From: an uncultured bacterium
GTDB taxonomy: Bacteria > Cyanobacteriota > Vampirovibrionia > Gastranaerophilales > Gastranaerophilaceae
Assembly: GCA_902763805.1 (NCBI GenBank)
Contig: CACWTN010000001.1
Location: forward strand, 358,805 to 422,804
Length of the DNA stretch: 64,000 bases
Reading direction: 5' to 3'
Below the pieces are notes generated by a model. It was given only the letters and a program-made list of their open reading frames with translations, was not told the DNA's origin and did no database searches. The translations under genes and the position numbers were made by a program. Of the stretch, positions 54,504 to 64,000 are shown piece after piece; the stretch's first letter is position 1; each line of letters begins with the position of its first letter.

Positions 54504-54705
54504 GACACAAAACAATACATTTCCGACTTAAAATAAACCATTTTGAGAAAGAAGAGTTAACAATGAGTAGCAGCATAGGAGAATTCAATGATGAATAGCC
54601 AAAATATTGATATGACTGACATTACGACGGAAGAAATATGAGCTGATGCAGAAACTGTTGCCAAGCTTAAAAGGATATAAAACGAGCCGTCAAAATATCA
54701 TTAAT
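54504..54705 (+). mobile_element. Relic of the left end of a Mu-like transposon
   Basis: This segment aligns without gaps over about 200 bp with the left end of the intact transposon at 61134-61336: the GACACAAAAC start, TTCCGACTTAA, the short leader ORF and the first 40 codons of the transposase. Similarity stops abruptly after 54705, so the rest was deleted. Confidence 0.85.
54589..54705 (+). pseudogene. Transposase remnant (5' end only)
   Basis: The frame starting with ATG at 54589/54592 reads as the beginning of the transposase at 61218 (NSQNIDMTDITTEEI against NSKDIDMTNIKTEEI). The Trp codon that follows in the intact gene is a TGA stop here (54638-54640), and further frame damage follows (TAA after KRI). 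Only about 40 of 698 codons remain. Confidence 0.8.
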
Positions 54706-54787: not shown

Positions 54788-57166
54788 ATGAGAGTAATTA
54801 TTGTTGGTGGTGGTGCTGCAGGTGCAAGTTGTGCCGCAAGATTAAGAAGATTAAATGAAGATGCTGAAATCATAATTATTGAAAGAACAAATGAGGTATC
54901 TATTGCAAACTGCGGTTTGCCATACTATGTTTCAGGTGTAATAAACGAAAGAGAAAAAATACTTGTTTCAACTCCTGAAAAATTCAAATCTTGGTTTAAT
55001 ATTGATGTTCTTTTAAATACTGAAGCCTTAAGTATTAACAGAAACTCAAAAACAGTAAGTTTAAGCAATGGCGAAGAATTAAACTACGATAAACTTGTTC
55101 TTGCTCAGGGGGCAAGTCCTATTGTACCTCCTTTTGAGGGAATGAATAAAGATAAAACTTTTATAGTCAGAAACCTTAATGATGCAGATAAAATTAAAAA
55201 CTATGTTCAACAAAACAATTCTAAAAAAGTAGTTGTTGTAGGAGGCGGCTTTATAGGAATTGAAATGGCAGAAAATCTTATTGAGATGGGATTAGAGACA
55301 ACCCTTGTTGAATTAGGTAATCAAATACTTGCACCTGTTGATGAAGAAATTGCATCTGTTGCCCAAAACGAAATGAGAGATAACGGAGTAAATCTTATTC
55401 TTTCTGATGGTGTAAAGAGTTTTGATGGTGATAAAATAATTCTCAATTCAGGAGTAAATATACCTTTTGATTTTGTGGTTTTAGCAATAGGAGTAAAACC
55501 TGAAACCGCATTAGCAAAAGTGGCTGGTTTGGAAGTGAATAGAGGAATACTTGTTAATGAATATATGCAAACAACTGATTCTGATATATATGCAGCAGGT
55601 GATAGTGTTGAAATAAAAGATTTTGTAACAGGTGATAATACTCTCATTCCTTTAGCTGGTCCTGCAAACAGACAGGGAAGAATTATTGCCGATAATATAT
55701 CAGGGCTTAATTCAACCTATAAAAATTCACAGGGAACATCTGTCTTAAAAGTTTTTGGATTAACTGTTGCAAGTGTCGGAAACAATGAAAAACAATTAAA
55801 ACAAAAGCAAATTTCTTATTGGAAAACTTTTGTATATGGGCATTCTCACGCAGGATATTATCCGGATTCAACTCAAACACTTTATAAACTTTTATTTACT
55901 CCCGAAGGTAAAATACTTGGTGCTCAGGCAGTTGGGCAAGAAGGCGTTGAAAAAAGAATTGATGTAATAAGTTCTGTTATGAGAAATGGCGGAACAGTAC
56001 AAGAACTTATTGATAGTGAACTTTGCTATGCACCTCCATACAATTCTGCAAAAGATTCTGGAGTAAACGTACTGGGAATGAATGCTGATAACATTTTAAA
56101 AGGATTTGTTAAACCGGCATATTTTGAAGATATAGAAAATTCTTATTTAATTGATGTAAGAGCAAATATTGCATACAAAACAAAAACAATAGAAGGTGCT
56201 GTAAATATTCCAATAAATGAAATTCGTTCTCGCTTAAATGAGATTCCAACCGACAGAAAAGTAATTTTATTCTGCAACACAGGATATACAAGTTATAATG
56301 CTTCAAGAATCCTGATTCAAAAAGGATTTAATAATGTTTATTCTCTAATGGGTGGAATAACTTTGTATAAGGAATTAGTAAAAAACAGAGAAGGCAAAGT
56401 TGCTGCGAAAATACTGGCAACTGTTGGAGCTTCCGTAAATAATTCTGAAATTATTAAAATTGATGCTTGCGGACTACAATGCCCTGGACCCATTATGAAA
56501 GTATCAAATGCTCTGAATAAAGCAAATGAGGGTGATATTTTTGAAATAACTTCAACTGACAGAGGGTTTAAATCTGATATTGCTTCTTGGTGTGAAAGTA
56601 CAGGAAACACTTTGGTTGATTTAAAACAGGACAAAGCAAAAATTGTTGCAACAATTGCAAAAGGAGGACAAGAGGTGGGAAATAAAGTTATAAATAATGG
56701 TAACGGACAAACTATTGTCGTTTTCTCAAATGATTTAGACAAGGCTCTTGCATCTTTTATTATTGCAAACGGAGCAAAAGCAAGCGGTAAAGATGTTACA
56801 ATGTTCTTTACTTTCTGGGGTTTAAACATTTTAAGAAAATCAAATGCTAATGTTAAAAAAGGCTTTATTGATAAAATGTTTGGATTAATGATGCCTAAAG
56901 GTGCAGAAAAACTAACCCTCTCTAAAATGAATATGGGTGGAATGGGCTCTGCTATGATGAAATGGGTTATGAAGAATAAAAACATTTCAACTTTATCAGA
57001 ACTTATTCAACAGGCAAAAGATAGCGGTATAAAATTCATTGCCTGCAATATGTCAATGGACGTTATGGGAATTAAAGAAGAGGAACTAATTGATGGAGTT
57101 GAAATCGGTGGAGTTGCAAAGTATATTTCTGAAAGCAACAATGCTAATTCAAATCTATTTATATAA
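54788..57166 (+). CDS. CoA-disulfide reductase-like flavoprotein fused to rhodanese, TusA and DsrE domains
   Basis: This 792-residue protein has four parts. Residues 1-440 are a flavoprotein disulfide reductase of the CoADR/NADH-polysulfide reductase type: FAD site VIIVGGGAAGASCAARL, the single active cysteine C42 in ANCGLPYY, the NAD site VVVVGGGFIGIEMAENL, and TDSDIYAAGDS. Residues about 450-545 are a rhodanese domain with Cys496 in FCNTGYTS. Residues about 555-625 are TusA-like (CGLQCPGP, Cys561 and Cys565). The rest is DsrE-like (about 640-792). Together they can reduce and relay persulfide sulfur. Probably a polysulfide/persulfide reductase that also helps in redox stress. GAGG precedes the ATG. 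Confidence 0.93.
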   Translation: MRVIIVGGGAAGASCAARLRRLNEDAEIIIIERTNEVSIANCGLPYYVSGVINEREKILVSTPEKFKSWFNIDVLLNTEALSINRNSKTVSLSNGEELNYDKLVLAQGASPIVPPFEGMNKDKTFIVRNLNDADKIKNYVQQNNSKKVVVVGGGFIGIEMAENLIEMGLETTLVELGNQILAPVDEEIASVAQNEMRDNGVNLILSDGVKSFDGDKIILNSGVNIPFDFVVLAIGVKPETALAKVAGLEVNRGILVNEYMQTTDSDIYAAGDSVEIKDFVTGDNTLIPLAGPANRQGRIIADNISGLNSTYKNSQGTSVLKVFGLTVASVGNNEKQLKQKQISYWKTFVYGHSHAGYYPDSTQTLYKLLFTPEGKILGAQAVGQEGVEKRIDVISSVMRNGGTVQELIDSELCYAPPYNSAKDSGVNVLGMNADNILKGFVKPAYFEDIENSYLIDVRANIAYKTKTIEGAVNIPINEIRSRLNEIPTDRKVILFCNTGYTSYNASRILIQKGFNNVYSLMGGITLYKELVKNREGKVAAKILATVGASVNNSEIIKIDACGLQCPGPIMKVSNALNKANEGDIFEITSTDRGFKSDIASWCESTGNTLVDLKQDKAKIVATIAKGGQEVGNKVINNGNGQTIVVFSNDLDKALASFIIANGAKASGKDVTMFFTFWGLNILRKSNANVKKGFIDKMFGLMMPKGAEKLTLSKMNMGGMGSAMMKWVMKNKNISTLSELIQQAKDSGIKFIACNMSMDVMGIKEEELIDGVEIGGVAKYISESNNANSNLFI

Positions 57167-57191: not shown

Positions 57192-57231
57192 TTGATTATG
57201 TGTTGACATAATCAAACAAGGGTGTTAGTCT
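57192..57231 (+). promoter_or_regulatory. Promoter and palindromic operator of the RHH-NifX gene
   Basis: TTGACA (57203-57208), a 17-bp spacer and TAGTCT (57226-57231) are followed by 6 nt and ATG 57238. The palindrome TTGATTATGT-N4-ACATAATCAA (57192-57215) covers the -35 box exactly, so a protein bound there would block polymerase. Confidence 0.75.
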
Positions 57232-57237
57232 TTTGTT

Positions 57238-57843
57238 ATGAGATGTTGTGAAAAATCAGGATGGGGCGGTAAACGTGAACAGGCAGGAAGAAAGAAAACC
57301 TGCCTTAAAAAAGTGCCGTTCAATAGACGTATAAATGAAAACATTTTAAATATTTTAAGAGATTACGCCAAAAGACATAATCTTACAGATACGCAAGCTC
57401 TTGAAAGTGCTATTTTATTACAAAGTAACATAGAAAAATTAAAAGGAGATATGGTTATGAAAATTTGTATTCCAACAAGCGAAGGGAAATTATGCGGACA
57501 TTTTGGACATTGTGATTCGTTTACTTTTGCTGAAATTAACCCTGAAACAAAGAAAATTATAAGTGTAGAAAATAAAGTACCTGAAGAAGGTATTTCTTGT
57601 CAAAGTGCAAGTTGGATTTCGGAACAGGGTGTAAGCAAAGTTTTAGCAGGTGGTATGGGTGGCAGACCTATGATGATGTTTGCACAAAACGGTGTTGAGG
57701 TTGTTGCAGGATGTCCTGAATTGCCAATTAGAGAAGTTTTAGAAAAATATATGGCAAATTCTCTTGAGACAGGTGAAAACGCTTGCGGCGGAGAAGGACA
57801 CGACCACGCACATTGTCATCATCATGGTGTATGTCAGCATTAA
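57238..57843 (+). CDS. Fusion of a DNA-binding (RHH-like) N-terminus and a NifX/NifB-type iron-molybdenum cofactor-binding domain
   Basis: This 201-residue protein begins with WGGKREQAGRKKTC, the basic GGxRxGAGR-type leader common in small ribbon-helix-helix regulators, followed by a likely RHH unit (VPFNRRINENILNILRDYAKRHNLTDTQALESAILL, about residues 26-62). From residue 74 it is a dinitrogenase cofactor biosynthesis domain: MKICIPTSEGKLCGHFGHCDSFTF and KVLAGGMGGRPMMMFAQNGVEVV. The tail is His-rich (GHDHAHCHHHGVCQH). A strong Shine-Dalgarno, AAAGGAG (57442-57448), lies 8 nt before the internal ATG 57457, so the second domain may also be made alone. It follows the sulfur flavoprotein by 71 nt. 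Confidence 0.85.
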   Translation: MRCCEKSGWGGKREQAGRKKTCLKKVPFNRRINENILNILRDYAKRHNLTDTQALESAILLQSNIEKLKGDMVMKICIPTSEGKLCGHFGHCDSFTFAEINPETKKIISVENKVPEEGISCQSASWISEQGVSKVLAGGMGGRPMMMFAQNGVEVVAGCPELPIREVLEKYMANSLETGENACGGEGHDHAHCHHHGVCQH

Positions 57844-61192: not shown

Positions 61193-61228
61193 TTGAGTAG
61201 CAGCATAGGAGAACTCGATGATGAATAG
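61193..61228 (+). CDS. Short leader ORF before the transposase
   Basis: An 11-codon frame (SSSIGELDDE after a TTG start at 61193) ends with TAG at 61226-61228, overlapping the transposase ATGs at 61218 and 61221. AAGAAGAG lies 6-7 nt before the TTG. The relic at 54563 has the same ORF with an ATG start and SSSIGEFNDE. Conservation of frame, length and overlap suggests translational coupling or a leader peptide. Confidence 0.45.
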   Translation: MSSSIGELDDE

Positions 61229-63314
61229 CAAAGATATTGATATGACTAACATTAAGACGGAAGAAATATGGATAGATGTCGAAATTGTTGCCAGGCTCAA
61301 AGGTATTACAAAAAGAGCCGTCAGGTTGTCATTAAATAATGATAAGTATGAGTGGAAAACAGAAAACTGCAGAGGCGGGCATCTGTATAAAATAAGATTG
61401 AGTACTCTTGAAGTTGAGTACCAAAAGAAATATATAGAAGAATATCTGGAAGAGATTAAATCAGCTGATTCGGAAGTAATCGAAATACAAAACCTAAAAA
61501 TCAAGCAGGAAAAACTGATTTCGGAAAACCAAAGAAAAATGGCTCTTGCAAAATACGATTTGGTTAATCTCTGGCTGGATTACAGAAAAGAGTTTAAGGC
61601 AAATAAATATGAAACATCAGACCAGACAATAAACCAGAAATTTGTTGAGATGTACAATTCCGGAATGTTGTATGAAAACGTTTTCAAAGTTCTCGGAACC
61701 ATATCGGAAGGAACGCTTTACAGGTGGAAACGAATACTCGGTTACAACCAAGATTGGACGGCGTTAGTCGGGCAATATAAATACTCAACAAGAAAAGAAT
61801 ATAATACATCGCTTAATGAAGAACAAATAAAGATATTTTTAAATATACTTTTATCCCCTAATAATTTTTCAATCGGAAAAGCTATAAGCCTCACAAAACA
61901 CATACTGCAGGAACGCGGATATGATATTCTCCCAAAAGACGTTACTTTCAGAAGGTACGCATATTGGTTCAGGGATAGCAATTTTGATAAATGGACTCTT
62001 GCACGTGAAGGGCAAAAAGCTTTGAAAGACAAAGTTGAGCCGTTTATTGTAAGAAACGCATCACTTTTAGAATCAGGACAAGTGCTTGTCGCAGACGGAC
62101 ATACACTCAATTTTCAGGTAATAAATCCGTTTACCGGCAAACCCTGCCGAGCCACTCTGCTTGGTTTTTTGGACTGGAAATCGGGCGGACTTGTCGGGTA
62201 CGATATTATGCTTGAAGAATGTACTCAAAATATTGCGTCAGCTTTGAGAAATGCTATTCTGAAGCTCGACCACATTCCCGACTATATTTATCAGGATAAC
62301 GGCAGAGCTTTTAAAAGTAAGTTCTTTAACGGAGATAAAAAGTTTGAGGAACTTGGATTTACAGGTATTTATCAGAAACTCGGAATCAGACCGGTTTACG
62401 CTACTCCATACAACGCCCGAGCCAAAGTCATCGAGCGTTTCTTTTTAGAGTTTCAGGAAAGTTTTGAAAAACTTATCCCGAGCTATATCGGAACAAGCAT
62501 AGAAAACAAACCTGCCTGGATGAAACGGAACGAAAAACTCCACGCACAGATTCACGAGAAGTACGGCTTTACTCCGACTATTGAACAGGCAATAGCATTA
62601 ATTGATAAGTGGCTTGAATACAGACACGCACAACCTTGTCCGAATGTTGAAGGGAAAACGATTCAGGAAGTAATTGATGAAACTACAAAACAAAATATTG
62701 ATGAAAATGAACTTGATGATTTAATGATGGCACAGGAAATTAAGAGTATCGGAAGGAACGGAATCAGGTTTTTGAAAGCTGATTATTTTGACGAGGCGCT
62801 TTACGGCATCAAAGAAAAAACGATAATAAAATACAGCCTGTTTGATTTGTCATATGTAAAGGTTTATTCGATGAAAGGCGAGTTTATCTGCAGAGCAAAC
62901 CGCGTTACAGAAACTCATCCGCTTGCGATGCAAATGGGCGACATTAAAGATATAGAAGACTATAAGCAAAAAATTGAAAAACAGCAGAAGCTCCGCAGGA
63001 AAACCATTAAAGCGGTTAAGGAACATTTCAATTTAGAGGATATGGATTATTTCGAAAAAGAACTAATGCACAATATCCGGACTCCCGAACCGGAACCTTT
63101 AAAGGAAATAACAATTATTCCTAAACCCAAACAAAAACAAAAATTTGAGCCAAAAGTCAAAACTTCAATCGTTGCAAGGCCTATATTTAAAAACGCATAT
63201 GAACGCTATGAGTGGCACATGCAAAACGGATGCATTTGCCAAGAGGATAGAACCTGGCTTGCAAATTACATAAAATCAGACGAATACAAAGAAATATACG
63301 GAAAGGAACAATGA
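61218..63314 (+). CDS. Mu-like DDE transposase
   Basis: This 698-residue protein has an N-terminal DNA-binding region (about residues 1-75: EIWIDVEIVARLKGITKRAVRLSLNN, a helix-turn-helix as in MuA), helical DNA-binding subdomains, and a DDE integrase core. Likely catalytic residues are the Asp in QVLVADGHTLNFQ, the Asp in IYQDNGRAFKS and the Glu in NARAKVIERFFLEFQ. A Mu-transposase C-terminal beta-barrel (about 510-570) and a basic tail follow. Two ATGs (61218, 61221) follow AGGAG. The ATPase gene overlaps its stop (ATGA). This transposase/ATPase pair is the MuA-MuB type. Confidence 0.92.
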   Translation: MMNSKDIDMTNIKTEEIWIDVEIVARLKGITKRAVRLSLNNDKYEWKTENCRGGHLYKIRLSTLEVEYQKKYIEEYLEEIKSADSEVIEIQNLKIKQEKLISENQRKMALAKYDLVNLWLDYRKEFKANKYETSDQTINQKFVEMYNSGMLYENVFKVLGTISEGTLYRWKRILGYNQDWTALVGQYKYSTRKEYNTSLNEEQIKIFLNILLSPNNFSIGKAISLTKHILQERGYDILPKDVTFRRYAYWFRDSNFDKWTLAREGQKALKDKVEPFIVRNASLLESGQVLVADGHTLNFQVINPFTGKPCRATLLGFLDWKSGGLVGYDIMLEECTQNIASALRNAILKLDHIPDYIYQDNGRAFKSKFFNGDKKFEELGFTGIYQKLGIRPVYATPYNARAKVIERFFLEFQESFEKLIPSYIGTSIENKPAWMKRNEKLHAQIHEKYGFTPTIEQAIALIDKWLEYRHAQPCPNVEGKTIQEVIDETTKQNIDENELDDLMMAQEIKSIGRNGIRFLKADYFDEALYGIKEKTIIKYSLFDLSYVKVYSMKGEFICRANRVTETHPLAMQMGDIKDIEDYKQKIEKQQKLRRKTIKAVKEHFNLEDMDYFEKELMHNIRTPEPEPLKEITIIPKPKQKQKFEPKVKTSIVARPIFKNAYERYEWHMQNGCICQEDRTWLANYIKSDEYKEIYGKEQ

Positions 63315-64000
63315 TGAAAAAGGTCTTCGTAAAAACGAAAAACGTGAAAAAGCTTATTACAATGATGAATAACCTTAAAAACCGAGACGAAGGAATTCCG
63401 GGGATGGGGTTGGTTTATGGTGAGCCGGGACTGGGTAAAACTTATGCGATAACCTGGTGGGCACTTCAAAATGACGCAATTTTGATTAGGAGTGCCAACC
63501 TTATGTCTGCCAGATGGCTTCTTGAAGAAATCGTTGAAGAGCTTGGTGAGATACCTTATAACAAGTTTTCGGATATTTTTAATCAGGTAGTTGCTCAGCT
63601 TATCAAAACGCCAAGGATAATTATAGTTGATGAAACAGACTATTTGACGATCGATTCTCGGGCGGTCGAAACTCTGAGAGATATTCACGATAAAACTGAT
63701 GTGCCGATAGTTTTGGTAGGTATGGGTACGGCAAATAAAAGGCTTCAACGTAACAAGCATCTATATGACAGGTTATCGGAGATTGTTAAATTTGAACCGT
63801 TTGAAAAATCGGATATCGATTCAATAATAAGCCAGTTAGCAGAAGTTGAGTTTACGGATTGTGCTAAAAAGCTGATTTATACCCGTACAAACAGGTTCCG
63901 CCAGCTTGTAAAAGTTATCAACAGGGCAGAGCTTCTGGCAAAAGCAAACGGAATAAATTCAATCGACGAAATAACTTTGAAGGAGGTGCTAAAAAATGAC
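63311..64000 (+). CDS. AAA+ ATPase, MuB/TniB-like transposition target protein (3' end outside window)
   Basis: The frame starts ATGATGAAAAAG at 63311, overlapping the transposase stop by 4 bp, and stays open to the window end (230 codons). Walker A is GLVYGEPGLGKTYA near residue 35. Walker B is IIIVDETDYL near residue 100, and LVGMGTANKRL is the sensor-1 region. FRQLVKVINRAELLAKANG belongs to the C-terminal lid. MuB-type ATPases bind target DNA and deliver it to the transposase. The N-terminal HTH of MuB itself is missing, so it is closer to the short IstB/TniB-like forms. Confidence 0.9.
   Translation, partial: MMKKVFVKTKNVKKLITMMNNLKNRDEGIPGMGLVYGEPGLGKTYAITWWALQNDAILIRSANLMSARWLLEEIVEELGEIPYNKFSDIFNQVVAQLIKTPRIIIVDETDYLTIDSRAVETLRDIHDKTDVPIVLVGMGTANKRLQRNKHLYDRLSEIVKFEPFEKSDIDSIISQLAEVEFTDCAKKLIYTRTNRFRQLVKVINRAELLAKANGINSIDEITLKEVLKND

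Follow-up and report, generated by a model that had tools for sequence, protein, structure and literature searches.

How might a bacterium place the control of a metal or metal-sulfur-cluster response, and the protein that answers it, in a single small gene? The question is raised by an open reading frame in a stretch of 64,000 nucleotides (hereafter the window) from an uncultured bacterium of Candidatus Gastranaerophilales. The frame (57238-57843, plus strand) encodes 201 residues, in which a putative RHH domain is followed by an ORP/NifX-type DIMO domain (PF02579) and a His/Cys tail (Table 1). A first-pass annotation of the window had described the joining of a small DNA-binding N-terminus to a NifX-like domain, a perfect 10-4-10 palindrome over the -35 TTGACA, and a Shine-Dalgarno with an internal ATG at the start of the NifX-like domain. 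All of these are present, and the product of the internal start has 128 residues, one fewer than the 129 then given. The source genome (1.96 Mb, 99.7% complete) holds two RHH-DIMO paralogues that are 80% identical. The records of the named relatives are mostly metagenome genomes of Candidatus Gastranaerophilales / Melainabacteria, many of them gut-derived.

Table 1. Features of the RHH-DIMO locus, in window coordinates
Feature	Position	Strand
Operator palindrome TTGATTATGT-GTTG-ACATAATCAA; family consensus YTTGAWWWTGTATTGACAWAWTCAAR	57192..57215	+
-35 hexamer TTGACA, within the operator	57203..57208	+
Predicted -10 hexamer TAGTCT, 17-nt spacer; weak in the window, TATAAT-like in the family consensus	57226..57231	+
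RHH-DIMO fusion gene, 201 aa, predicted leaderless start (TTGACA to ATG 35 nt)	57238..57843	+
Basic arm WGGKREQAGRKKTCL, its Cys near-invariant (82/83 in type A, 28/28 in type B)	57262..57306	+
Putative RHH domain, with KKVPFNRRI as the predicted ribbon and two predicted helices (residues 34-46 and 51-69)	57307..57447	+
Internal Shine-Dalgarno AAAGGAG, codons 69-71, with signs of nucleotide-level selection	57442..57448	+
Internal start ATG74 and predicted 128-aa DIMO-only product	57457..57843	+
DIMO domain, ORP/TM1816/NifX-like	57457..57762	+
His/Cys-rich C-terminal tail	57784..57840	+

The two halves of the protein

On its own sequence, the assignment of the N-terminus to the RHH fold is weak: the first 73 residues of the window protein, searched by themselves against Pfam, gave no confident family match. 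Relatives and models nevertheless point to an RHH. Among 15 members of the module, RHH_3 (PF12651) matches four (best E 1e-5) and the phrog_876 repressor matches 14, the PHROG matches being Arc-like or transcriptional repressors, and a profile of the module compared with the PDB finds the viral RHH regulator SvtR (2kel) at E 0.004. The AlphaFold model has the two helices listed in Table 1, with pLDDT near 90, and the strand is absent in this monomer model. VapB, CopG, Arc and an antitoxin take the top Foldseek ranks for the RHH model, every E lying above 1 because folds so short do not reach a significant value.

The C-terminal half matches PF02579 at residues 82-172 (E 2.5e-19; 69.8 bits against a curated cut-off of 26.3), and also the structures of PH0822, TM1816, NifX and ORP (2yx6, 1o13, ORP 2wfb). 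The nearest DIMO relatives are ORP and MrpORP, and not the nitrogenase proteins NifX and NifB. MrpORP is the best NCBIfam profile for the window protein, at 91 bits against a cut-off of 450, with a match that covers only the C-terminal part of the model; the P-loop ATPase domain (Mrp/NBP35) is lacking in the window protein. Within the order, the closest sequence relatives of the DIMO domain are ORP-like domains that adjoin, or are fused to, Mrp-type ATPases and belong to other families. A search of the source genome for an Mrp partner returned one moderate match to a ParA-type ATPase and none of Mrp strength. The absence of a nitrogenase, first remarked for the window, extends to the whole source genome, where PF00148 has no match, and a partnership with nitrogenase is thereby ruled out.

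As regards the cofactor, DIMO proteins are described to bind Fe-S or mixed clusters (PMC6345978; PMC5524996): the Di-Nase domains of MrpORP bind Fe-S clusters (PMC6345978), and IssA, made of a DIMO domain and an unstructured C-terminal tail, binds iron and sulfide and stores thioferrate (PMC5524996). Other families of the order have orp-like clusters at loci L040, L065, L069 and L070, where a gene for a MerR-like regulator is grouped with two for DIMO proteins and two for ATPases of the MinD/NifH type.

A putative operator over the gene's own promoter

A scan of the window that allowed up to three mismatches to the palindrome arms returned a single match, the one at 57192-57215, where 0.01 would be expected by chance. 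From the -35, the 17-nt spacer and the weak -10 taken together, +1 is predicted to coincide with the A of ATG 57238, and initiation at this codon from a weak -10 promoter would be leaderless. The operator pattern occurs twice in the source genome, once before each RHH-DIMO paralogue. When relaxed to two mismatches, it gives 34 sites in that genome against 17 for the reversed control. Apart from the sites of the two paralogues none of these is convincing, and a wider regulon is therefore not claimed. Relaxed matches within the window alone are at chance level, and the promoters of the adjacent genes for CoA-disulfide reductase and rubrerythrin, also inspected, showed no operator copy. The palindrome was also considered as a terminator, a role ruled out by its overlap with the -35 and by its conservation where the flanks and upstream genes differ.

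Across the order, the operator pattern is found in 117 of 383 genomes and the reversed control pattern in none, counts that are not independent since all members come from one bacterial order. These 383 genomes hold 119 distinct operator sites, 118 of which are directly followed by a gene that encodes the same RHH module; the 26 occurrences among 65 congeners all precede an RHH-DIMO gene. The reverse test started from 80 loci of named genomes picked by protein alone, 79 of which have enough upstream sequence. The operator is present in all 79, with a score of at least 22 of 24 positions, and in their alignment TTGA, GT and TCAA never vary, against flanks that stay close to background. Seven module-positive genomes missed by the strict pattern each carry an operator with one mismatch, and the second copy in one genome (G152, locus L241) has half of its operator deleted. 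In the comparison proposed by the first-pass annotation, homologues with unrelated flanks thus retain the palindrome along with the N-terminal extension, an outcome in its favour. Furthermore, 28 operator sites precede genes of a second type, with the same RHH and no DIMO; as the linkage persists without DIMO, the operator goes with the RHH. At the level of sequence, the association of the operator with the RHH module is nearly one to one.

The sole orphan among the 119 sites (L206 / L242, G249:C32) is an intact operator without an RHH gene behind it, possibly a remnant after gene loss. At another locus (L017, genome G029), the operator 5' of an RHH-DIMO gene forms part of a larger perfect inverted repeat, whose arms measure 22 bp (TAAGGTACCAACTTGATTATGT...); no other operator copy examined is placed in this way.

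Two architectures on one RHH

The fusion found in the window, RHH-DIMO with a His/Cys tail, is here called type A and comprises 83 genes. In type B (28 genes), a stretch of 43-99 Cys/His-rich residues (e.g., MHECNHEHHCNHEGHNCGHGEGHCHGHGEGHNCHGGGCHGKGQ) is followed by the RHH and then by the stop codon. Ahead of the RHH, the 28 type-B genes encode 4-9 Cys and 6-17 His, a composition that fits metallothionein, so that the type-B N-terminus looks like a metallothionein and is a putative metal sink. Immediately behind the GRK arm, 110 of the 111 genes of both types encode a Cys. At most type-B loci the next gene lies on the opposite strand. In the long type-B proteins L034, L113 and L137, the Cys/His part is separated from the RHH by an additional conserved stretch (RRRLFEEKYTKYLL...F..WL).

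A tree built on 54 columns, and hence only suggestive, groups type A as one clade, with the long type-B genes L113 and L137 branching at its base and the remaining type-B genes on the far side from type A. This topology is suggestive of an older Cys/His-RHH autorepressor that may later have gained a DIMO domain.

A predicted leaderless start and a conserved internal start

In type A, TTGACA lies 33-38 nt before the ATG in 69 of 83 genes, and at exactly 35 nt in 42. A Shine-Dalgarno precedes the full-length start in none of the 74 type-A genes in which the distance from TTGACA to ATG is at most 38 nt (4/83 overall), and in 25 of 27 type-B genes. The internal signal follows a different pattern. 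The AGGAG of the window (57444-57448) ends 8 nt before ATG 57457, and both ATG74 and a Shine-Dalgarno before Met74 are found in all 83 type-A fusions. Among 300 other internal Met codons, only 3 are preceded by such a site.

Codon usage at this site was compared among 38 type-A representatives of less than 80% identity, with the remaining conserved Gly positions, placed on the same tree, as a matched control. Gly70, which lies within the internal Shine-Dalgarno, is encoded by GGA in 35 of 37 divergent genes, as opposed to 32% at the other Gly positions (p 2e-15), and codon 71 varies between D, G, E and N, mostly with the Shine-Dalgarno kept. In these alignments, the internal Shine-Dalgarno and ATG74 bear the clear mark of selection at the nucleotide (RNA) level.

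A proposed feedback circuit in one gene and its alternatives

We propose, with a probability of about 0.7, that the locus is a self-contained feedback gene, in which an RHH autorepressor carries an effector of its own that binds metal or cluster, and which is read out as a leaderless and a Shine-Dalgarno-driven product. The groundwork of this scheme, which the comparison of sequences shows, consists of the one-to-one link between operator and RHH, the overlap with the promoter, the leaderless spacing and the selection on the internal start. Transcription would begin at the ATG, under a promoter whose -35 lies inside the 24-bp operator; the leaderless full-length protein would bind this operator and block its own promoter. 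Such autorepression, deduced from linkage and position, is the best-supported step of the scheme, with strong comparative support. From the same mRNA, the strong site before the domain junction would give an effector made of DIMO and the His/Cys tail, devoid of the DNA-binding part. This predicted 128-residue protein would probably be more abundant than the full-length repressor, and is taken as the main product because one start has no leader and the other has a strong site. The DIMO domain and tail, together with the Cys beside the DNA-binding arm, would bind a metal or a metal-sulfur cluster; the ligand would most likely release the repressor, and more buffer or chaperone would be made until the ligand is mopped up. 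A signal of this kind is proposed because a His/Cys-rich part and the arm Cys are, apart from the RHH, all that the two types have in common, although richness in His and Cys is only suggestive; the sink-like look of type B makes us favour derepression by an excess of ligand.

Other regulatory logics could be built on the same parts. RHH autorepressors are common in plasmid and toxin-antitoxin systems, and the regulon here is one gene, both of which would suit a plain homeostatic autoregulation where the RHH holds its own level constant and binds DNA irrespective of ligand. Nevertheless, the RHH is in every member coupled to DIMO or to a part rich in His and Cys, the arm Cys is almost always kept, and we consider this reading unlikely. 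The sign of the response might instead be the opposite, with the ligand-bound form repressing and the DIMO scaffold made when metal or cluster is scarce. NikR, an RHH metal regulator, binds its operator in the Ni-bound form (PMC7055735), and the binding of Fe-S clusters by the Di-Nase domains of MrpORP would make control by shortage possible; this has to be set against the metallothionein-like N-terminus that type B carries on the same RHH and operator, as sinks are normally induced by excess metal, and the reversed sign appears rather doubtful. We are also rather inclined to doubt a scheme in which the arm Cys senses sulfide, persulfide or redox state and DIMO carries or stores Fe-S in the manner of IssA. 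The near-invariance of that Cys, the storage of thioferrate by IssA on the same domain (PMC5524996), and a CoA-disulfide reductase/TusA/DsrE2-type gene adjoining seven type-A copies, divergent across the operator in two, speak for such a sensor, but most copies lack these neighbours and type B looks suited to divalent or soft metals.

The remaining alternatives question the parts themselves. Since operator binding by the RHH is deduced from linkage, the palindrome might be the site of another, unlinked regulator to which the RHH is irrelevant; this is very improbable for a motif that occurs essentially only before the RHH module, over two unrelated partner domains, with a reversed control of zero. 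As for the internal Shine-Dalgarno and ATG, relatives have stand-alone DIMO genes with a Shine-Dalgarno, and a start of that kind could be the ancestor of the junction, left as an unused relic of gene fusion. A relic, however, would have drifted, whereas GGA at Gly70 is retained, the Shine-Dalgarno is mostly kept while codon 71 changes, and ATG74 is universal in type A, which makes the relic a poor candidate.

Relation to known regulators

The closest known design is that of NikR, described as the sole metal-regulated RHH (PMC7055735), with which RHH-DIMO shares the domain order, the RHH at the N-terminus and the ligand domain at the C-terminus, and a long inverted-repeat operator. They differ in the ligand domain, which in RHH-DIMO is the DIMO and not the NikR metal-binding domain, and in the operator, TTGANNNTGT-N4-ACANNNTCAA as opposed to GTATGA-N16-TCATAC; both of these NikR hallmarks are absent from the window gene. 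Moreover, NikR controls an importer, whereas RHH-DIMO would control itself, with the effector in the same polypeptide. ORP and MrpORP have the same DIMO/Di-Nase domain, but RHH-DIMO is without the P-loop ATPase of MrpORP and has the RHH in its place. IssA resembles RHH-DIMO in combining DIMO with a C-terminal tail, which in IssA is cationic, with Gly and aromatic residues, and in RHH-DIMO is His/Cys-rich; besides, IssA as described has no DNA-binding domain. Repressors of the Arc/CopG/VapB type, the top structural neighbours of the RHH model, are likewise small RHH repressors of their own promoters, but they have neither a fused metal-binding effector nor an internal start that parts effector from repressor. 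In the SmtA/SmtB system, a Cys-rich metal sink stands under an ArsR-type repressor, sensor and sink being two proteins. Type B similarly combines a Cys-rich putative sink with a repressor, but in one polypeptide and with an RHH instead of the ArsR type.

The RHH autorepressor is thus of a known kind; what appears to be new is its union with its own effector in a gene whose two starts are conserved. A search of the open-access literature, which is weak evidence of novelty, found no RHH or CopG joined to DIMO and no self-repressing metallothionein. Tentatively, and at slightly less than even odds, these genes may represent a new type of circuit in which a single gene provides for the homeostasis of a metal or cluster, each encoding an RHH autorepressor with its own buffer and a regulon of one gene. 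Type B would then be a self-repressing metallothionein and type A a leaderless repressor with a free effector made from the Shine-Dalgarno start. If this is true, sensor, actuator and effector of the response would reside in one small gene, alternative initiation (leaderless versus Shine-Dalgarno) would set the ratio of repressor to effector, and a second metal-responsive RHH family would be added to NikR; the promoter-repressor pair would also be short enough for rebuilding in Escherichia coli. The locus would further offer a precise operator and clean mutants for a bacterial group with almost no experimental data on regulation.

Genomic neighbourhood

In about a dozen type-A copies an MBL-fold hydrolase gene lies downstream, usually at operon distance. 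Besides the seven copies adjoined by the gene for CoA-disulfide reductase, rhodanese, TusA and DsrE2, three adjoin rubrerythrin and three have cation-efflux genes nearby; sulfur flavoprotein and rubrerythrin neighbours recur in a minority of homologues only. As judged from these genes, the neighbourhood leans to metal and sulfur chemistry, and is too varied to name the ligand or to fix the function. In the window, CoA-disulfide reductase, rhodanese, TusA and DsrE2 are fused into one predicted protein of 792 residues (54788-57166), a persulfide-handling line in a single polypeptide. Just upstream of this gene lies a decayed copy, with an in-frame stop (54588-54680), of the N-terminus of the transposase-like open reading frame at 61218-64000 (MMNS.DIDMT...TEEIW). 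From this relic and the intact frame, the block of genes between 54.8 and 61 kb appears to be bracketed by a Mu/Tn7-like element and its own remnant.
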